Notes under the pieces: model-generated | The model's database searches: none | What the model saw: only the letters and a program-made list of their open reading frames with translations | What the model was told of the DNA's origin: nothing | In this document: piece after piece, positions 48,514-63,697 of the stretch | Position numbering within the stretch: position 1 is the stretch's first letter | Layout of the letters: each line of letters opens with the position of its first letter | Position numbers and translations under genes: made by a program | NCBI GenBank assembly: GCA_015234045.1 | Contig: JADFWU010000009.1 | Coordinates: 22,234-86,233 of the forward strand | Direction of reading: 5' to 3' | Source: Magnetococcales bacterium | GTDB taxonomy: Bacteria > Pseudomonadota > Magnetococcia > Magnetococcales > JADFWU01 | Length of the DNA: 64,000 nt

Positions 48514-48577
48514 TATTGTCGTTTCTTGAAATTGCAAATAGTGCAAGATGTTCTACAGACTTCCTTGTCTGCATTAA

Positions 48578-48734
48578 GGGACACGGAAAAAATTAATCAT
48601 CCCATTCACTGGTCTCTTGATCCGTCCACTGCGTTCCAGAAAGGGTTACGTGCAATAAGCACGCGCCCCTTTCTGCGCCTTGCTGACGAATCAATATCCT
48701 GCGCGACTGGGATGATTAATTTTTTCCGTGGCCC
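48578..48734 (+). mobile_element. MITE-like palindromic element, family 1, copy 1
   Basis: A 157-bp non-coding element with terminal inverted repeats of about 27 bp beginning GGGACACGGAAAAAATTAAT and ending in the complement with CCGTGGCCC. TAA flanks both ends (48575-48577 and 48735-48737), consistent with a 3-bp target duplication. The copy at 58129-58285 has identical length and about 94% identity in the opposite orientation. The ends and duplication suit mobilisation in trans by an IS5-like transposase, but no transposase gene is in the window. It lies 9 bases beyond the stop codon of the lipoprotein gene at 48744. Confidence 0.8.
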
Positions 48735-48743
48735 TAACATGTG

Positions 48744-50795: not shown

Positions 50796-50933
50796 GCCCT
50801 GTTGACATTCACCATCTTTCGGCCCCTGGCGGCGTTAAATCCGCCTCAAAATGCTCACGTACTACAAGTACGCTCCGCTTTTTCGTTGGATTTGCCTTGC
50901 CAGGAACCGAAATCTGGCGAATGTCAACACGCC
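50796..50933. mobile_element. MITE-like palindromic element, family 2, copy 1
   Basis: A 138-bp non-coding palindromic element. Its ends, CCTGTTGACATTC (left) and GAATGTCAACACGCCC (right), form inverted repeats, with further internal arms around GTACTACAAGTAC. The copy at 57987-58125 is nearly identical in inverted orientation. The right edge directly abuts the TAG stop codon of the glutamate dehydrogenase gene at 50934. Exact edges and target duplication are unclear for this copy. Confidence 0.75.
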
Positions 50934-53861
50934 CTAGCTCATGCCCAGCTCCAGAGAGGAACGCACGCCACCGCGTTGAAGCAGGGCGATCACTTCATTT
51001 TGATCAACAGGTGTACCCTGTTGTAGTGCGGTGATCAGTTTGGAAACCCGTTGTTCCTGGCGCAGATAGTTGATGGCCAGATCCGCCAGATCAGAACCAT
51101 CCAGATCTTGAAGGAAGGTCAGTCCTTCATGGTAGATGATCCGAGTAGCCAGATTGGAAGCGATGATCCACCGCATGTAGGCGGCAGGCATTTTATCCAG
51201 ACCATGATCACCGATTTCGGCATAGAGCGTTGATGGTAAATGCTCTTTGACTAAATTACGCAGCAAAGCGTCTTCTTTCAGAGAAGAGAGAACAGACTCA
51301 ATCACACCGGCTGTTTTGTTGATCACCTCACTGATATGTACACTCAACGCAGGTAACAGACTGGATGGACGGCGGCGATATTCACGGAACAGCAGTTCAG
51401 ATTCGCGCCGGGCAAGATGGCGTAGACGGTCCAATACCTCAGCGACAAACGGCTCTTTGATCTCAATAAATCGTTTCTGATCCAGCAACATGGCTGCCGT
51501 GATTTCATAACTGCTACAGATAACGCCTGCCTTGTTGGCCGAGCTGTCTTTGACAATTAGCACGGAAGTCTCTATGGATAGCCGTTGTCGGGCCTGTTCG
51601 GTGATGAACAGGTTGGCACCTTCAACAATGACTTTGGCAGAGGCGGATTTGTCGTCCGTCAAAAAATGGTGCCAGTTATCCGCGTGGATGGTGGATGGCC
51701 GACCACCACAAGGTACGAAAGCATCGGCAATCAGGCGATTATGCAACGTATTACGCAAGGCAATGGATGCGTCACTCTCCAAGCCGTTGACCTGGCCGTC
51801 AGGGCCTAACGCAGCGGGATTGAAATCGGCAATGCCTCTGCTCTCGTCTACGAGGCGCAGGAGTTCGGTATGGTCCAAGCCATCGGGATCTTCTGCGCTG
51901 CCTGTGCCATCGGCAATGCCGATGATTACAGCGTTTTCGCCATATTCCCGATGCAGAATACGGATCTCATTGCCTGCTACATCGCCATCAGGACCACCGG
52001 TTATTTTGAGAGTGAAGCGTTGTTGACGCGGGTTGATACCCACTTCCAACAGTGCCATCTCAAGAAAGACATTTACACCTTCACTGGTAACACCATATTC
52101 CTTGTGATTGATGCCTGTCTCCGGCTTCGAACTCATGAACGTATCCGCCATGGGATAGCCGCGTTTTCTAGCACGCTCTACCAACCAGACAATCAAATCA
52201 TCGGTCATGTTCTCATCAGGGCCAAAGAACAGCAGTTCTTTATGAGACAGACGGTCAATAGCGGGATTGAGTGCCGGCGAGTCTGGCAAAAGTAGATCCA
52301 TCATGCCATCACCAAACGCTTTGACAGACCGTGCGACCAAAGCTTCCGGTTCCAGAAGTATGACCGCTTTGGAGCCGCCTTCCGGGATATCTTTGTTTTT
52401 CAATTGCTGGGCAGAGGCGAGACCAAATACTTCATCATAGTGGCGATTGCTCTCAATGGTGTGGTGTTCATCATTGTTGGTGATTACCACACGCACACCA
52501 CCTCGGGCGATATCACGAAAACGGACATGGAAACCGTTAAATCCACGACCATGAACAAAATAGATACCGAATGGTGTTGTCTCCGCACCATCAGCGCTAT
52601 CCCGGCTCATAAATGCTGGATCAAGCCGGATAGCCAATGAATAACGAGACATCATGCCCACATTGGAACGCACTGTTGATCCGACTGCATCAAGATGCGT
52701 CATCAAAATACGTTGGATATCTTCGCTCATCTCCTCGGTTTGTATCGCAGTACTCAGGCTGTGCAATGTGTCAATAAACGTCTCTTCTGCCATAGGCGTG
52801 TCGATGGCAAACCGAGCCATGAACAGTGTTGTCAGCCGGTCAATCAGGCGTGGGTGTTTCAGTGTTTCGGTTAGGATACGGTTTCTGGCATAGGTGAATG
52901 GATTGATGCGCGAAAGGCGCTGATGGGTCAGATCGCACAGTGCCAACAAGAGCTCCGATTGCGCCAATGTTGAGATGGTGCCGGTGATAAACAGGTTAAG
53001 GGCGCGTTTGTCGATCCATTTGATCTGTCGAAGATCTCTGATTAAATGAGCGCTATTGTCCGTTTTAGATGCCGATTCAGGGCGCACATCAAAGGTGAAA
53101 AAGGTGACCGTGTCCGCATCAGGTCCATGCATTTGATCAAGAACCGCTTGCCGAATATCCATGTTCAATGCGCCCAGATAGGCGGCGATTCTTTCGAAGA
53201 GCAGGCGGGAATCCACATTGCCAGCCGCAATGGTCAAACGCCGTAAACCGGCCTCAACAGGCGTATCATCCACCATGACATCATCACTGCCATACACCTG
53301 TTGATAGAGTGTCCAGTGGGTTAATAAACGGCTGGATGAGATGGTGTTCAGATAGTCCACTGTCGCGTGTTGCAACAGGTTTTTGATCCCTTCGCGCGTG
53401 GACTCTGCTCCATCAACCTTTGAGAGCAGTTGATCACGCCGCGCTGTATGGGCGCTGTTGGATGGGTCAAAATAGTCGGCTTTGGAGAAGTGGAACACGT
53501 CCACAACCAACGAGCCATCCAGTGCGGAATAGACTTGAGCTGACCGAAGTGGCCGATCAGTTGGTAATTTTTTGAGCAGATCAACCAACAGTCCGGGCCG
53601 ATCTTCTTCGCCGAGATAGGTCCAGGTAGAGCCACGGGCATTGTAGAGGGTCAGCGATAATGGTGTTTCATTGCTTTGTGAGGCCAGTAGTGCTGTGAGA
53701 TGCTCCATGCGGGTCTGGATATCATTTTCACGAAAATACGCCTCCGGCATTACGCGATGAAACCAGGGCATAACCTCACGGACCGAGGCGGTCAATGACT
53801 CAATAAGGCGATCTCCAAGGGCGCTCTCTTCAGACTTTGCCGCTTCAGTTTGTTGATTCAT
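50934..53861 (-). CDS. NAD-dependent glutamate dehydrogenase, large (about 115 kDa) class
   Basis: Cytoplasmic enzyme of about 975 aa that oxidatively deaminates glutamate to 2-oxoglutarate with NAD+, feeding carbon into the TCA cycle. An N-terminal regulatory region (about 1-430) precedes the catalytic core with GGVRVVITNN, IPEGGSKAVILLEPEA (catalytic-lysine region), TGGPDGDVAGNEIR in the nucleotide-binding domain, and NLFITEQARQRLS. The length fits the 115-kDa class rather than the hexameric (about 450 aa) or 180-kDa classes. The ATG at 53861 is preferred over one 12 codons earlier because AAGGAA lies upstream, although somewhat far. Its stop touches a MITE-like element. Confidence 0.9.
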   Translation of the reverse strand: MNQQTEAAKSEESALGDRLIESLTASVREVMPWFHRVMPEAYFRENDIQTRMEHLTALLASQSNETPLSLTLYNARGSTWTYLGEEDRPGLLVDLLKKLPTDRPLRSAQVYSALDGSLVVDVFHFSKADYFDPSNSAHTARRDQLLSKVDGAESTREGIKNLLQHATVDYLNTISSSRLLTHWTLYQQVYGSDDVMVDDTPVEAGLRRLTIAAGNVDSRLLFERIAAYLGALNMDIRQAVLDQMHGPDADTVTFFTFDVRPESASKTDNSAHLIRDLRQIKWIDKRALNLFITGTISTLAQSELLLALCDLTHQRLSRINPFTYARNRILTETLKHPRLIDRLTTLFMARFAIDTPMAEETFIDTLHSLSTAIQTEEMSEDIQRILMTHLDAVGSTVRSNVGMMSRYSLAIRLDPAFMSRDSADGAETTPFGIYFVHGRGFNGFHVRFRDIARGGVRVVITNNDEHHTIESNRHYDEVFGLASAQQLKNKDIPEGGSKAVILLEPEALVARSVKAFGDGMMDLLLPDSPALNPAIDRLSHKELLFFGPDENMTDDLIVWLVERARKRGYPMADTFMSSKPETGINHKEYGVTSEGVNVFLEMALLEVGINPRQQRFTLKITGGPDGDVAGNEIRILHREYGENAVIIGIADGTGSAEDPDGLDHTELLRLVDESRGIADFNPAALGPDGQVNGLESDASIALRNTLHNRLIADAFVPCGGRPSTIHADNWHHFLTDDKSASAKVIVEGANLFITEQARQRLSIETSVLIVKDSSANKAGVICSSYEITAAMLLDQKRFIEIKEPFVAEVLDRLRHLARRESELLFREYRRRPSSLLPALSVHISEVINKTAGVIESVLSSLKEDALLRNLVKEHLPSTLYAEIGDHGLDKMPAAYMRWIIASNLATRIIYHEGLTFLQDLDGSDLADLAINYLRQEQRVSKLITALQQGTPVDQNEVIALLQRGGVRSSLELGMS

Positions 53862-56829: not shown

Positions 56830-56876
56830 TAACGATAACTCATTCACCACCAAATCTCAGCATAGGAGTGATATGT

Positions 56877-57926
56877 ATGGCCCAGCTACGGTCAATTAAC
56901 AAACTGTTTTTTGTTCTGATTATTGGCTTGATTCCATTGTTTGGCTGTCAAACAACACAGACGGACTCCGCGCACCAAAGCGACATGGTAGGCACGGATA
57001 AAGTGAGCGTGCATATGCCTTGGGCGCGGGCAACACCCGGTCATGCGCGTGCCGGTGCGGCATTTATGGTGCTGGATAATCCGACTGCTACGGCGGATCG
57101 TCTGGTTGCGGCTTATGCTGGTGTCTCTAAAACCGTTGAGCTGCATACCCATATTCAAGAAGGGGCAGTGATGCGGATGCGCCAAGTGCCGCATATTGAT
57201 CTCCCTGCTGGAGAAAAGGTGGAACTGCGTCCTGGTGGATTGCACATCATGTTCATCGGTCTGAATGCACCGCTGTCTGAAGGGGAAAGATTTCCTTTGA
57301 CGCTGGAATTTTCCCAGGCTGGCAAAATCGACGTTGAGGTGCATGTCAAAGGGGCAGGCTCAGATCATTCCGGCATGATGCGCGGCAAACCTGCATGTCA
57401 TGGCCAAATGGATGGTAAGGGCATGCATCAAGGGATGCATCATGGACATATGATGCAGAGTGCAAAGCCATGTGATTGTCCTAAGATGGATGGCAAGCCC
57501 TGTAATTGTCCTAAGATGGATGGCAAGCCCTGTGATTGTCCGAAGATGGATGGCAAGCCCTGTGATTGTCCGAAGATGGATGGCAAGCCCTGTGATTGTC
57601 CGAAGATGGATGGCAAGCCCTGTAATTGTCCTAAGATGGATGGCAAGCCCTGTAATTGCCCTAAGATGGATGGCAAGCCCTGTAATTGCCCTAAGATAGA
57701 TGGCAAGCCATGTGATTGTGTCAAGATGAATAATGGTAAGCCGTGTGATTGCCCTAAGATGGACGGCAAGTCCTGTAATTGTCCTAAGATAGATGGCAAG
57801 CCATGCGATTGTGCCAAGATGAATAATGGTAAGCCGTGTGATTGTATGAAAAACAGCATGAAAGGTATGCATGGCAAAAAGGGCATGCATGGTGGACATG
57901 GTCATCATGGGCATTCAATGCACTGA
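56877..57926 (+). CDS. PCuAC-type copper-chaperone lipoprotein with 13-unit Cys repeat
   Basis: A predicted periplasmic lipoprotein of 349 aa. The signal ends in PLFGC (C24). The PCuAC (DUF461) domain (about 40-160) carries the family's copper-ligand pattern, including VELHTH, MRMRQVPH and GGLHIMFIG. From residue 199, 13 units of about 10 residues based on CDCPKMDGKP run to about residue 325, giving 26 Cys as CxC pairs. A His/Met/Gly tail follows. Such a tail should bind many Cu(I) ions, so it may store or buffer copper; this is inference. The ATG at 56877 has AGGAG 8 bases upstream. The SCO1-like gene follows on the same strand past two MITE-like elements, suggesting copper delivery to a cuproenzyme such as cytochrome oxidase. 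Confidence 0.9.
   Translation: MAQLRSINKLFFVLIIGLIPLFGCQTTQTDSAHQSDMVGTDKVSVHMPWARATPGHARAGAAFMVLDNPTATADRLVAAYAGVSKTVELHTHIQEGAVMRMRQVPHIDLPAGEKVELRPGGLHIMFIGLNAPLSEGERFPLTLEFSQAGKIDVEVHVKGAGSDHSGMMRGKPACHGQMDGKGMHQGMHHGHMMQSAKPCDCPKMDGKPCNCPKMDGKPCDCPKMDGKPCDCPKMDGKPCDCPKMDGKPCNCPKMDGKPCNCPKMDGKPCNCPKIDGKPCDCVKMNNGKPCDCPKMDGKSCNCPKIDGKPCDCAKMNNGKPCDCMKNSMKGMHGKKGMHGGHGHHGHSMH
57471..57848 (+). repeat. In-frame 30-bp tandem repeat encoding CxC units
   Basis: The DNA is a tandem array of a unit close to TGTGATTGTCCTAAGATGGA followed by TGGCAAGCCC. Most copies are nearly identical; three later units have a 33-bp variant (MNNGKP), and later copies diverge more. It lies entirely within the copper-lipoprotein gene and probably expands or contracts by slippage or recombination. 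It is not a CRISPR array: there are no unique spacers. Confidence 0.9.
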
Positions 57927-57986
57927 TCGTTTGATAGAACGCTTTATACTGTTTGCATCACCAAGGGCACCTCTGTAAGTGCGTTA

Positions 57987-58125
57987 GGGCGTGTTGACAT
58001 TCGCCAGATTTCGGTTCCTGGCAAGGCAAATCCAACGAAAAAGCGGAGCGTACTTGTAGTACGTGAGCATTTTGAGGCGGATTTAACGCCGCCAGGGGCC
58101 GAAAGATGGTGAATGTCAACAGGGT
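57987..58125. mobile_element. MITE-like palindromic element, family 2, copy 2
   Basis: A 139-bp copy of the element at 50796-50933, inverted relative to it. Ends GGGCGTGTTGACATTC and GAATGTCAACAGGGT form inverted repeats, with TTA on both sides (57984-57986 and 58126-58128) consistent with a 3-bp target duplication. It is separated from a family 1 element by three bases. With that element it occupies the 390-bp gap between the copper lipoprotein and SCO1-like genes, so any operon would read through both hairpins. Confidence 0.75.
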
Positions 58126-58128
58126 TTA

Positions 58129-58285
58129 GGGCCACGGAAAAAATTAATCATCCCAGTCGCGCAGGATATTGATTCGTCCGCAAGGCGCAGAAAGGGGCGC
58201 GTGCTTGTTGCACGTAACCCTTTCTGGAACGCAGTAAACGGATCAAGAGACCAGTAAATGGGATGATTAATTTTTTTCGTGGCCC
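58129..58285 (-). mobile_element. MITE-like palindromic element, family 1, copy 2
   Basis: A 157-bp inverted copy of 48578-48734, with ends GGGCCACGG and CGTGGCCC and about 94% identity by eye. TTA precedes it and TTG follows, an imperfect target duplication. It lies beside the family 2 element and 31 bp before the chosen start of the SCO1-like gene. An upstream ATG inside it (58263) is in frame with that gene but probably not used. Confidence 0.8.
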
Positions 58286-58316
58286 TTGGAGGTGCCCAAG
58301 TATTAGGAATTGGGTT

Positions 58317-58922
58317 ATGACACGAAAACAGAGTAGGGTAACGGGTCGGCATTGGTTGGTTGTTGCTTTGATGCTTAGTTGGTTTTTGCCGTATGCCGTG
58401 CCAATGCATGCTGCGTCACTGGAACCCATGCCGCTCAAAGGTGATTTTTCCTTAGTAGATGAAACTGGTCGCAAGGTAAGTTTGGCAGACTATCGTGGTT
58501 CAATGCTGCTGGTCTATTTTGGCTACACGTATTGTCCTGATGTGTGTCCAACGAATTTGGGTATCATTGCCCAGGCGTTGGATATGCTGCCAAAGGCCGT
58601 TACAGATAACATTCAGCCTCTATTGATCACCGTTGATCCAGGTCGGGATCTGTTGGTGCATCTCAAGGAGTACACCAAGGCGTTTCATTCAAGCATGATG
58701 GGTCTGTCTGGATCAGAGCAGGCTATTGCTCAGGCGGCCAAGCTGTTTGGTGTTTACTATGCCAAAGTTGAGACTGATCCCGAAGAGCCGGATAGTTACT
58801 TGATGGATCATTCAGCCAGTACTTATTTTCTCAATGAACAAGGTGAAATCGTGGATATATTCGACCATGCACTACCGGCTGAACAGATGGTTGAAAGGAT
58901 CTTGAAATGGGTCAATCGGTGA
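58317..58922 (+). CDS. SCO1/SenC-family copper chaperone
   Basis: A thioredoxin-fold protein of 201 aa, membrane-anchored or periplasmic via an N-terminal hydrophobic segment (about 12-33). The copper-binding CPDVC (C73 and C77) and the distal His (H165 in MDHSAST) are all present, so it should bind copper and act in assembly of the CuA centre of cytochrome oxidase or in thiol redox. The ATG at 58317 has AGGA upstream and avoids the in-frame ATG at 58263, which lies inside a MITE-like element. It overlaps the next gene, indicating co-translation. Confidence 0.93.
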   Translation: MTRKQSRVTGRHWLVVALMLSWFLPYAVPMHAASLEPMPLKGDFSLVDETGRKVSLADYRGSMLLVYFGYTYCPDVCPTNLGIIAQALDMLPKAVTDNIQPLLITVDPGRDLLVHLKEYTKAFHSSMMGLSGSEQAIAQAAKLFGVYYAKVETDPEEPDSYLMDHSASTYFLNEQGEIVDIFDHALPAEQMVERILKWVNR

Positions 58923-59419
58923 TGGCGATTCATGACATTTCAGGTCAATGGAACCGCCTTCATTTAGCCAAATGGTGGCGTTTTTTTGTGCTGGTTATTG
59001 CGTTGAGCGTGTTGCCTCTGCCGCTTTCTGCTCAAGAGGTTGATATTGTTGAGCAGACGGCACAGAAAGTTTATGAGCAGTATGCCCATGCGTTGATTCG
59101 GGGTCAGTTTGATCGGGCGCGTACACTGTCAACTGGTGAAGCGTATGCCTTGGTTGATAAAAAACAGCGCTTGGTAGAAAAGGGCGAGGACACCATTTCA
59201 AATGTCGTTGAAGCACAATTGCTGGTCAACGGTGCCAAGGTATCCAAAAGTCAAACACGTGTCGCATTTCGGGCACTGTTTATCGTTGATACAAAAAGCC
59301 CGGTAGGTGATGACTATATTGCCCCGGATTTACACCGACAGTCAGCCATTGTGGCCCTGGATAAATCGGACTGGAAGGTGATAAAATTTGAGGACAGTTT
59401 AGAAAAGTGCTGTCTATAA
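58907..59419 (+). CDS. Hypothetical exported protein coupled to SCO1-like gene
   Basis: A 170-aa protein with an N-terminal signal (FFVLVIALSVLPLPLSAQ) and a mature part of helices then beta strands, ending in EKCCL. It resembles small NTF2-like periplasmic proteins in outline, but I do not recognise the family. The start at 58907 has AAGGA 7 bases upstream; an alternative ATG at 58922 overlaps the SCO1 stop (TGATG). The overlap implies translational coupling, so a role in copper handling or oxidase assembly is a reasonable inference. It converges with the RND gene 13 bp away. Confidence 0.7.
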   Translation: MGQSVMAIHDISGQWNRLHLAKWWRFFVLVIALSVLPLPLSAQEVDIVEQTAQKVYEQYAHALIRGQFDRARTLSTGEAYALVDKKQRLVEKGEDTISNVVEAQLLVNGAKVSKSQTRVAFRALFIVDTKSPVGDDYIAPDLHRQSAIVALDKSDWKVIKFEDSLEKCCL

Positions 59420-59432
59420 TATCCTGTTTTGG

Positions 59433-62400
59433 TTAACTGTTTTTTTGTCTGACCAACAGTGAAAACAGTGTCGGTGCCAAAACCAGTGTCAATATCGTAC
59501 TCAACAGTAACCCGCCAATGATGACGCTGCCCATGCCCCGGTAAAGCTCAGATCCTGCGCCGGGAAACAGCACCAGCGGTAATAGTCCGCACACCGATGT
59601 GAATGTAGACATGAAGATCGGTCGAATCCGAATTCGCACCGAGGCAACAACAGCGTCATTTACCGTCATTTTTTCATCCCGCATAAAGTGCAGTGCCTGA
59701 TGCACAATCAGGATTGCGTTATTCACTACCACACCGATCAAAACGACAAACCCCAACATGGTCAATACATCCATCGGTTGAAAATGGAATATATTCAATA
59801 CGGTGAGGCCAATGACACCGCCTGCGGCTGCCAAAGGCACTGTTGCAATAATGACCAAGGGGTAGAGAAACGATTCAAACAGCGCCGCCATCAGCAAGAA
59901 GGTGATAGACAACGCCAGTAGAAATTGATTGCCCATCGCCTGTTTAGCCAACAGGAGTTGATCCGCCCCTTCGGAGAGTGCCAACGTGGTCATAGGCGGT
60001 AAGCCTTGGGCAATGGTGGGTGAGATCAATTCATTCTGAATTTTATCAACCGCACTTTCCATTGCCATATCTTTAGGCGGATTAATGCGCAGAATGACTG
60101 CTCGACGCCGATCCACATGTTGAATCTCAACCGGTCCGGCAGTGGGTGTAAGTTGTGCCACAGTGGATACGGGAATGATGGCGTTGTTTCGCGTGGACAG
60201 GGGTAGGGTGCCGATATCCTGGATATGCTGTAATGGTCCGGTTTCACCTTGAATTACCAAGTCCATTTGACGACCGTTGATGATCAGTTCATCCACTTTC
60301 AAACCATCGGTTAACGCTTGAACGGCTTGTCCGATCTCCAAAGCTGAAAGGCCATTCTCACGTGCTCGTTGGCGATTTGGGATTAAATGGACCTCAGGGT
60401 TGCCCAGTTCCAGTCCGGGAATGGGGCGCACCTGTGCGCCGGGTAGAATGCCCTTTACCGTGCCAAACAGTTGTCGTGCCAAATCGGTGGTGGTCTCAAG
60501 ATCTGCACCGGTAATCGTCAGGTCCAAAGAGCGGCCAGCACCCAATCCACGAGAAAACAGACTCCGTTGATTGACAATACCGATTGTGCCCGGAAGATTG
60601 GCGATTGGATGGCGAATAATGGGCAGCAGTTCTCCAACCCGCTCCGGCTCGGAAGCCGCGCCACCCATGAAGGCAATGGCACCTCGTGCGGCAAAGAAAA
60701 AGTGTCGGATTAATGGGGGTTGGTCGGGATGCTCGGGATCTTTCTGCCAATGGGGCATCAACTCTTTTTCAACCCCGCCTGCCATACGCGCCATCTCTTC
60801 CAGGTTGTAGCCCGGTGGCGGAATCAGCATGGCAAAGATGAGATTGCGGTTGCCGCTGGGAAGATATTCGGCCGGTGGAATTAGGTTTAATGTCAACCAG
60901 ATGCCGCCGACGACCAACGATATGACCACCATCAAACGCCGCAACAGGGACCGGTTGATTCCTTTTGTCAGGCCAACCAGCAGACGCACAAACAGACCAT
61001 CTTTTAAATTATCTTGAACAACCGATGCGGTACTTTTGGAGCCACGCCCCATCAGTCGAACGCTCATGGTTGGGATGACCGTGGTGGAGACGATCAATGA
61101 AAGCATCACTGCCGCACTCAACGCCACCGCAATATCACCAAACAGCTGCGCTGCTTCAATCTGTAATGTCAAAATGGGCAAAAATACGGCAACCGTAGTG
61201 ATGGTTGAGATTAAAATCGCGCCCCAAACCTGTTGTGTGCCATGTAAAGCAGCCTGTTTGACCGTTTGGCCGTTTTGACGTAATCGAACAATATTTTCCA
61301 ACACCACAATGGCCGGATCTACCACCATGCCCACGGAAAATGCCAAGCCTGCCAAGGAGATTACATTCACCGTACGTCCCAAACCATACATGGCCAAGAA
61401 GGCACCGATTACTGAGATGGGAATGGCCAATGCAATGATAACGGTTGGTGAAAAAGAGCGTAAAAACAGCAATAACACACCCATGGCCAACAAAGCACCG
61501 ATGAGCAGATTATTACGAACCAGATCCAAAGCCGCGTGAATATAGTCGGTTTGATCATACAGAACCGTTAAATACAGGCCGCGCGGCTTCAAAACGGTTT
61601 CATTCAATGTGTTAACAGTTTCATGAACCTGGTTCATAATCTCCAGAACATTGGCACCCTGTTCACGTACGGCATTGAGCACCAATGCAGGCCGACCATT
61701 GCCGCGCACTGTGACGGTGGCATCCTGAAAGCCAAAATCCACGCTGGCAATATCCGCAACAGTGATCGGACCAGATGGATCAGACCGAACCACCACTGTT
61801 TTTACATCGTCAGGATTACGAAAACGTCCGGTAGAGCGGATCAGGTAGCGCCGTTTGCCCTCATCCAATTGACCGGCGGAGATGTCGGCATTTTCACGCC
61901 GTAATGCCTGCGCCAGATCGGAAATTGTGATCCCACGTGCGGCCAGTCGTGCTGAATCCACCGTAACGCGCAACTCACGCTTACGCCCGCCGTAAATATT
62001 GGTGCCAGCCACGCCGGGGATGGATTCCATGGCGGGTTGAACGCTGTCTTCAACAAAATCCAACTGATTGTAAACCGGTCGGCTATCCTCAGGGTCGAGG
62101 TGTTGAATACGCATCCAGGTGATGGGAGAGCTATCGCTATCTGCTGATTTAAGGGTGGGGCGAAACGAATCATCAGGATAGTCACGGATTTTCTGTAATC
62201 GGTTGGAAACCAGCACCATGGCTGAATCCATATCCGTACCCAACTGAAATTCAAGTTTGATGCGCACACGACCCAGACTGGAACTGGAATTGATTTTCTC
62301 CAGCCCCGGCAGAGATTTCAACACCTCTTCCTGTGGAATGGTCAGTTCATTCTCAACCTCCATAGGGGCGGCACCGGGCCAGCGTGTCTCAACCGTAATT

Positions 62401-62531
62401 ACTGGTTTACGTACATCCGGTGTCAGCTGTACAGGAATGCGGGCAAAGGCCAAGAGACCAAACATCAGCAACAGCAATACACCAACCGCAACCGCAACAG
62501 GTCGTTCGATGGAAAATCGGACCGGACTCAC
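59433..62531 (-). CDS. RND-family efflux permease (HAE1/AcrB-like)
   Basis: An inner-membrane proton-driven exporter of 1032 aa, normal RND length, with 12 TM segments and two large periplasmic loops. TM4 carries GMVVDPAIVVLENI: the first Asp of the proton relay is present, while the position that is often Asp or Asn is Pro. The usual signatures are visible: N-terminal FSIERPVAVAVGVLLLLMFG, GALLAMGVLLLFLRS, and VVLIGVVVNNAILIVH in the second half. The GTG start overlaps the stop of the upstream adaptor (GTGA), so the two form an operon. No outer-membrane factor is encoded beside it; a TolC elsewhere would be needed. The substrate is unknown; proximity to copper genes does not by itself indicate metals. 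Confidence 0.93.
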   Translation of the reverse strand: MSPVRFSIERPVAVAVGVLLLLMFGLLAFARIPVQLTPDVRKPVITVETRWPGAAPMEVENELTIPQEEVLKSLPGLEKINSSSSLGRVRIKLEFQLGTDMDSAMVLVSNRLQKIRDYPDDSFRPTLKSADSDSSPITWMRIQHLDPEDSRPVYNQLDFVEDSVQPAMESIPGVAGTNIYGGRKRELRVTVDSARLAARGITISDLAQALRRENADISAGQLDEGKRRYLIRSTGRFRNPDDVKTVVVRSDPSGPITVADIASVDFGFQDATVTVRGNGRPALVLNAVREQGANVLEIMNQVHETVNTLNETVLKPRGLYLTVLYDQTDYIHAALDLVRNNLLIGALLAMGVLLLFLRSFSPTVIIALAIPISVIGAFLAMYGLGRTVNVISLAGLAFSVGMVVDPAIVVLENIVRLRQNGQTVKQAALHGTQQVWGAILISTITTVAVFLPILTLQIEAAQLFGDIAVALSAAVMLSLIVSTTVIPTMSVRLMGRGSKSTASVVQDNLKDGLFVRLLVGLTKGINRSLLRRLMVVISLVVGGIWLTLNLIPPAEYLPSGNRNLIFAMLIPPPGYNLEEMARMAGGVEKELMPHWQKDPEHPDQPPLIRHFFFAARGAIAFMGGAASEPERVGELLPIIRHPIANLPGTIGIVNQRSLFSRGLGAGRSLDLTITGADLETTTDLARQLFGTVKGILPGAQVRPIPGLELGNPEVHLIPNRQRARENGLSALEIGQAVQALTDGLKVDELIINGRQMDLVIQGETGPLQHIQDIGTLPLSTRNNAIIPVSTVAQLTPTAGPVEIQHVDRRRAVILRINPPKDMAMESAVDKIQNELISPTIAQGLPPMTTLALSEGADQLLLAKQAMGNQFLLALSITFLLMAALFESFLYPLVIIATVPLAAAGGVIGLTVLNIFHFQPMDVLTMLGFVVLIGVVVNNAILIVHQALHFMRDEKMTVNDAVVASVRIRIRPIFMSTFTSVCGLLPLVLFPGAGSELYRGMGSVIIGGLLLSTILTLVLAPTLFSLLVRQKNS

Positions 62532-63697
62532 GGGGTGCTCTCCTGGTTGGCATCAATCCGAACTTTTTGATTGGGCAATAACCGTTCATTGCCCTTGATG
62601 ACCACCTGCATGCCCGGTTCCAGTCCCGATTGGATACGGAACCATGTTTTGTATGCTTTGCCAAGTGTCACAGGTTTCATGGTGACGCTATCGCCTTCAA
62701 GTACGAAGACCCGTGGATTGTTACCGCTCATCAACACGGCATCCTTATCCACCAATAGCGCAGGTTCTGGATCGGAAATCGGTACATTCACCCGAATCTC
62801 ATTGCCTGCAATCAGTCTCTGATCTGGTGTGTTGATGGTCCAAAATACCTGCCGATTCCGGCTGTTTAAATCCACATCGGGCAGTACGGCCCGAGAGGTC
62901 AATAAAAGCGTTGATTGATCGCCTTGCAGTGTTGCTTCAGCCGTCACGCCCTCTTTTAACCACTGGGCATAATGGGCGGGAATCGGAGTGGTCACTTCCA
63001 GCGCGGTAGGATTCATCAGAATTACCACTGGATCGCCCCGATCCAGCCATGCACCCGGTGCGGTTAAACGCTCAATCACCACACCGTCAAACGGTGCTAT
63101 GACGGTGTGATTGTCCCGGTTGAAGTGACTCTGGTTGATACGTGCCTTAACCTGAGCTACTTCAGCATGTTGGATTGCTAATGCCGCTTCACTCTCGGTT
63201 AATTGGCGCTTGGAAACCGAATGAGAAACGGCTAACTTTCGATCCCGTGCCAGATCTTTCTGTGCTTTATCCAATCGTGCCCGTGATTCAGCCAATTCCG
63301 CTTTTAAAATAGCCAACGTATGATCAATACTGTCCTGATCAATCTCAATCAGCGTACTGCCTGCGTTAACCCGATCACCTGGCTCTACCGAGACCCGAGC
63401 CACTAACCCGGCAACCTGCGTTGCCACAGTGGCACGTAGACGGCTATGCACCTGACCCACCACGTTGAGTGTTGGTATGACTGCTTGTTGAAGCACGGGT
63501 GTTACAGTCACCAATGGTGGCGGGCGTTTGTCGCCCTTTTCCTTGGCTTCGAGTACATCGGAATGCACCATGCTGAGACAGAGCAGAAAAAAAACACAAA
63601 GTCGCAAGCCTCTGTGAAGTAATGGCGGATTATGGAGCACTGTGTCGATCCATTTGGAGGGAAGATAAAAAGGGTGTATATCTGTTCTCATGGTCAT
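62528..63697 (-). CDS. RND periplasmic adaptor (AcrA/HlyD-like)
   Basis: A membrane-fusion protein of 389 aa for the RND permease that follows. The hydrophobic LRLCVFFLLCLSMVHS acts as signal or anchor. The mature part has a lipoyl half (VATQVAGLVARVSVEPGDRV), a coiled-coil hairpin, the second half (VIAPFDGVVIERLTAPGAWL) and a beta-barrel/membrane-proximal domain. It is coupled by a 4-base overlap with the permease. The start is uncertain because the ribosome site is weak; an internal Met at residue 3 is an alternative. Confidence 0.9.
   Translation of the reverse strand: MTMRTDIHPFYLPSKWIDTVLHNPPLLHRGLRLCVFFLLCLSMVHSDVLEAKEKGDKRPPPLVTVTPVLQQAVIPTLNVVGQVHSRLRATVATQVAGLVARVSVEPGDRVNAGSTLIEIDQDSIDHTLAILKAELAESRARLDKAQKDLARDRKLAVSHSVSKRQLTESEAALAIQHAEVAQVKARINQSHFNRDNHTVIAPFDGVVIERLTAPGAWLDRGDPVVILMNPTALEVTTPIPAHYAQWLKEGVTAEATLQGDQSTLLLTSRAVLPDVDLNSRNRQVFWTINTPDQRLIAGNEIRVNVPISDPEPALLVDKDAVLMSGNNPRVFVLEGDSVTMKPVTLGKAYKTWFRIQSGLEPGMQVVIKGNERLLPNQKVRIDANQESTP

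Follow-up and report, generated by a model that had tools for sequence, protein, structure and literature searches.

A PCuAC copper-chaperone lipoprotein with a tail of thirteen CxC pairs encoded next to SCO1 in a Magnetococcales bacterium

The gene and its cluster

The gene described here encodes a 349-aa lipoprotein of the PCuAC family with a tail of CxC repeats, and it is the first of a three-gene cluster in the window, that is, in the whole 64-kb stretch of DNA that was analysed (Table 1). Its start is the ATG at 56877, with AGGAG at 56864-56868 and an overlapping GTG at 56868, and its stop codon occupies 57924-57926. The match to PF04314 scores 129.5 bits against a curated cut-off of 29.4 and covers the profile in full (positions 1-109), and the copper-site motif H-X10-M-X21-H-X-M is intact between H90 and M125. 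With these matches and the predicted lipobox, the PCuAC lipoprotein proposed by the first-pass annotation is borne out. By its domain the protein is a PCuAC family member. There are 28 Cys in total, namely the lipobox Cys24, one in the linker (within ACHG) and 26 in the array. The same annotation had placed a His/Met tail after the array, which is correct for the C-terminus (ending in HGHHGHSMH) but incomplete, as a His/Met-rich stretch also precedes the array.

Table 1. Features of the PCuAC gene and its cluster (window coordinates)
Feature	Position	Strand	Basis
Whole gene, 349-aa PCuAC lipoprotein with CxC-repeat tail	56877..57926	+	ORF and ribosome-binding site by sequence; PF04314
Signal peptide, lipobox LFG-C, predicted lipidated Cys24	56877..56948	+	Sequence
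PCuAC domain, residues 45-153	57009..57335	+	Pfam E 6.2e-38, copper-site motif, PDB relatives
His/Met-rich linker including unit-like segment MRGKPACHGQMDGK	57336..57464	+	Alignment to CxC unit
Array, 13 CxC pairs (26 Cys), consensus unit KPC[D/N]CPKMDG	57465..57845	+	TRF and sequence
His/Met-rich C-terminus MKNSMKGMHGKKGMHGGHGHHGHSMH, resembling ends of tail-less orthologues	57846..57923	+	Sequence comparison
SCO1/SenC	58317..58922	+	Pfam PF02630 E 4.9e-43; synteny
D170, exported-looking 170-aa protein, third cluster gene	58907..59419	+	Conserved in cluster

The open reading frame of SCO1 is listed from 58263, the ATG at 58317 being the likelier start. The third gene product, D170, has no family match in Pfam or NCBIfam and shares 24-34% identity with its Magnetococcales relatives; it may be a copper factor or an oxidase-assembly factor that has escaped recognition. 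Seven other members of the order (L002-L006, L008 and L009) share the arrangement PCuAC-SCO1-D170, and in L007 the contig breaks off. In the genome, a 3.65-Mb draft assembly of 117 contigs which is 93% complete and has the window on contig 117, a single PCuAC and one COX2 were found, the latter with CuA ligands CVEFCGTRHSYM. PCuAC and Sco proteins work jointly in CuA assembly in the bacteria studied (PMC9145763; PMC7558416). Because of this cooperation, the SCO1 cluster and the CuA-type COX2, the basic role of the gene is likely to be the supply of copper to the oxidase during its assembly, as judged from its family, its SCO1 neighbour and the COX2.

The region 59433-63697, read in the opposite direction to the copper cluster (minus strand), holds an RND efflux permease gene (ACR_tran) and, upstream of it, an ORF resembling a membrane-fusion protein.

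The CxC array

Exactly 13 CxC motifs with 26 Cys are counted from 57471 to 57845, in 30-bp units and two 33-bp units, and so the thirteen-unit tail that had been annotated stands. TRF detects it as one array with a period of 30, 12.5 copies and 85% matches; it is the sole tandem array that the program reports in the 64 kb and is far beyond chance. All Cys of the array are in CxC pairs, with none lost across the 13 units, and the reading frame is kept throughout. The spacer had been given as PKMDGKP, which is exact in seven of the 12 intervals; the other five carry close variants (PKIDGKP twice, and PKMDGKS, VKMNNGKP and AKMNNGKP once each). The whole tail of 153 aa is Lys-rich and contains no F, W or Y, and with its 26 paired Cys it upholds the resemblance to a copper metallothionein. 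Two antisense open frames (57360-57914 and 57440-57886, minus strand) span the array; such frames are expected where a repeat period is divisible by three, and they should not be read as genes.

The proposal that the tail expanded recently in tandem is supported: complete 30-bp units share 24-30 of 30 bases (units 3-5 are the same, as are units 2 and 6) and the longest exact direct repeat reaches 81 bp. The unit pairs 8-9 and 11-12 have a common pattern, KIDG and then CDC[V/A]KMNNG, which suggests the duplication of several units at once. The alignment score of the linker segment MRGKPACHGQMDGK with the unit MDGKPCNCPKMDGK, a comparison picked post hoc, was reached by none of 2000 shuffles, and at the DNA level the match of this segment to the unit did not reach significance (84 of 1000 codon shuffles). 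The position of the array between the domain and a His/Met end of the ancestral type, beside this Cys-poor look-alike of the unit, suggests local amplification. A short unit inside the His/Met extension that is common in PCuAC proteins was probably amplified in frame to give the array.

Relative to the consensus unit there are 11 synonymous and 12 nonsynonymous differences, i.e. 0.20 versus 0.044 per site, a roughly 4-5-fold synonymous excess. All 12 nonsynonymous differences spare Cys and Lys, and five of them reflect the switch between D and N inside the CxC pair. The excess suggests constraint, a signal that is only indicative because the units share recent ancestry.

Cysteine tails among relatives

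The nearest orthologues, 47-63% identical where they align, have short His/Met tails without a Cys array, and none of the seven orthologues sharing the PCuAC-SCO1-D170 cluster has one. The CxC tail was not found elsewhere in the order (48 genomes) or in 397 sampled Pseudomonadota genomes. Two scans of genome collections, one for the full protein and one for its tail, gave no relative; these scans need an exact short peptide match, so that distant variants could escape them. Weak tail matches in seven other genomes (E 1e-5 to 8e-8) were rejected as low-complexity or out-of-frame repeats without CxC arrays, and a tblastn search of plasmids gave PCuAC-domain matches only, none reaching 80% of the query.

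At least four Cys after the domain are present in 5 of 108 distinct PCuAC proteins, a sample biased to long reading frames; these are the present protein and four from the Magnetococcales genus g8. The g8 proteins (L025, L040, L041 and L043) have long Met/His/Cys-rich tails with 4-10 Cys, and three of them contain CxC pairs, for example HCTCMKNGMCKHGNKDGSCGCKKDGSCACMK, L043 being the one with none; the tail of L040 runs into an N gap of its assembly. They belong to a different PCuAC clade (split support 100/99) and are positioned after SCO1, and in three of the four genomes (G007, G022 and G027) a type-A PCuAC without a Cys tail is also present. Cys tails on PCuAC thus appear to have arisen at least twice within Magnetococcales, independently. 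When the present tail was compared with the four g8 tails, 3, 11, 34 and 98 of 500 shuffles reached the observed scores, which points to a mainly compositional similarity. When the L025 tail was used as a query across the phylum, no additional CxC relative came up. A PCuAC-metallothionein fusion was not met in word searches of open-access papers, and no close precedent for a PCuAC carrier fused to a putative copper store was found among the 108 related proteins or in the literature searched.

Comparison with known systems

Among the nearest known systems are Bradyrhizobium PcuC, Neisseria AccA and Rhodobacter PccA, exported proteins with the same domain and H-X10-M-X21-H-X-M site, a Sco partner and a His/Met-rich C-terminus. 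Their tails are short and without Cys arrays, whereas in the present protein 13 CxC pairs are inserted ahead of the His/Met end. The g8 proteins are likewise PCuACs beside SCO1 with Cys-containing tails and K-x-DGK-like spacers, but they differ in clade, in the smaller number of Cys, in their irregularity and long Met-rich segments, and in having SCO1 upstream.

Yeast CUP1, the Neurospora metallothionein and mycobacterial MymT resemble the present tail in being Cys-rich and Lys-rich, with CxC pairs and without aromatics. They are, however, small, free-standing and mostly cytosolic proteins, while this tail, with its regular and wider spacing of 7-8 residues, is part of a 349-aa exported lipoprotein. 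In Pfam searches up to E 10, in NCBIfam and in the PDB it matched no metallothionein family, and its weak matches to Extensin_1 and MIC2 look compositional, so that descent from a metallothionein was rejected; the tail looks home-grown. Csp1 and Csp3 are likewise rich in Cys, which are proposed to take up numerous Cu(I), but Csp proteins are pre-folded four-helix bundles (PMC7558416) and there is no sign of such a fold in the tail. Bufferins, MNIO-modified copper-binding RiPPs, are exported Cys-rich copper buffers as well, but they need the MNIO enzyme, for which a PF05114 search gave no match in the 93%-complete genome (a control search was positive in 2 of 14 genomes). RiPP modification of the tail was therefore discarded, and modified thiols are not expected.

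Proposed function and competing explanations

With a probability of about 0.5, the protein is a PCuAC chaperone, anchored by a lipid in the periplasm, that helps to assemble cytochrome oxidase and has acquired, within the one polypeptide, a thiolate store resembling a metallothionein. According to this proposal the chaperone, with SCO1 and probably D170, would serve oxidase assembly in the periplasm, and the 13 CxC pairs would bind Cu(I). The capacity would be about 13 if each pair held one linear Cu(I), and up to about 18 at ratios like those of yeast CUP1. The tethered pool of Cu(I) could buffer periplasmic copper and protect against its excess, and it could reload the neighbouring Met/His site, which would hand copper to SCO1 and CuA. 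This explanation is preferred because the PCuAC domain has its motif intact, in a cluster conserved in seven relatives and a genome with a CuA-type COX2 and a single PCuAC; because every one of the 26 Cys belongs to a CxC pair and none was lost, in a tail free of aromatics where synonymous differences per site exceed nonsynonymous ones; because apparently independent Cys-rich tails sit on another PCuAC clade of the order; and because ordinary PCuAC tails bind copper in some members (PMC13006917).

The role of disordered metal-binding tails on copper chaperones is disputed, one PCuAC needing its tail in vitro and another not needing it in cells: the Bradyrhizobium tail binds Cu(II) and is essential in vitro, while gonococcal AccA can do without its own in cells (PMC13006917). 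The latter finding counts against the store proposed here, as does the absence of copper coordination by the PcuC tail in a structure (PMC12860648). The same direction is indicated by simple pattern searches, in which no copper-regulator boxes were found upstream of the PCuAC gene, and by the oxidising nature of the periplasm, because of which the tail thiols may be present as disulfides.

It is rather unlikely that the tail is a detoxification sink only, sequestering excess Cu(I) (or Ag, Cd or Hg) and exchanging nothing with the chaperone site. Its Cys-rich, metallothionein-like CxC composition would suit such a role and the permease gene of the RND type adjoins the cluster, but the tail is fused to a chaperone inside a cluster of the oxidase-assembly type with SCO1, and no resistance genes were identified in that cluster. 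A low probability is given to the idea that the CxC pairs serve as a dithiol reductant instead of storing metal, so that the Cys of SCO1 or CuA are still reduced when the metal is inserted. CxC pairs can form disulfides, which would fit this chemistry. The cysteines of CuA and Sco need to be reduced for metal insertion (PMC7558416), which also speaks for the reductant; nevertheless there is no thioredoxin-type fold to steer the reaction, 13 copies are hard to account for by a redox role, and the array is carried by a copper protein amid His/Met stretches of copper-ligand type.

Two further explanations concern the array as such. A neutral or transient product of slippage, in which a disordered tail grew through expansion of a short repeat that has little function, would agree with the occurrence of near-identical units in a single genome and with their absence from orthologues, and yet it is improbable, given that 0 of 26 Cys were lost despite synonymous changes, that the frame was always kept and that Cys-rich tails recur on another PCuAC clade. 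Misassembly of the array or of its length is unlikely and is assigned only a very slight probability: a single draft of 117 contigs, the 81-bp exact repeat and the N gap within the Cys tail of L040 could be taken to favour it, but the units bear distinct variants, the 30- and 33-bp units are in frame, and the array is followed by an orthologue-like His/Met end and a stop. The exact number of units rests on the one draft assembly.

More generally, it may tentatively be proposed that a copper carrier and a Cu(I) store were combined on a single chain, with an expandable CxC array tuning capacity by repeat number, and that this solution was reached more than once in Magnetococcales. If the chaperone-and-store explanation is right, the protein would show a metallothionein-like module arising from scratch by amplification of a short unit, and it leads one to ask how a store made of thiols can operate in an oxidising periplasm. 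The orthologues offer a natural experiment, in which one protein has a potentially high-capacity thiolate array and its relatives have His/Met tails.

Sequences around the gene

Promoter and terminator scans around the gene gave signals near chance level, and an Rfam search for an RNA element gave nothing credible. The interval between the PCuAC gene and SCO1 is occupied by two dispersed families of near-palindromic repeats, of about 140 and 165 bp (57984-58124 and 58125-58289), with further copies in the window at 50797-50936 and 48576-48737. Both families taken together, in both orientations, match about 75 places in the genome with up to 100% identity. Long hairpins are predicted for these repeats, which look like elements of the MITE/REP type and may separate the transcription of SCO1 from that of the PCuAC gene.
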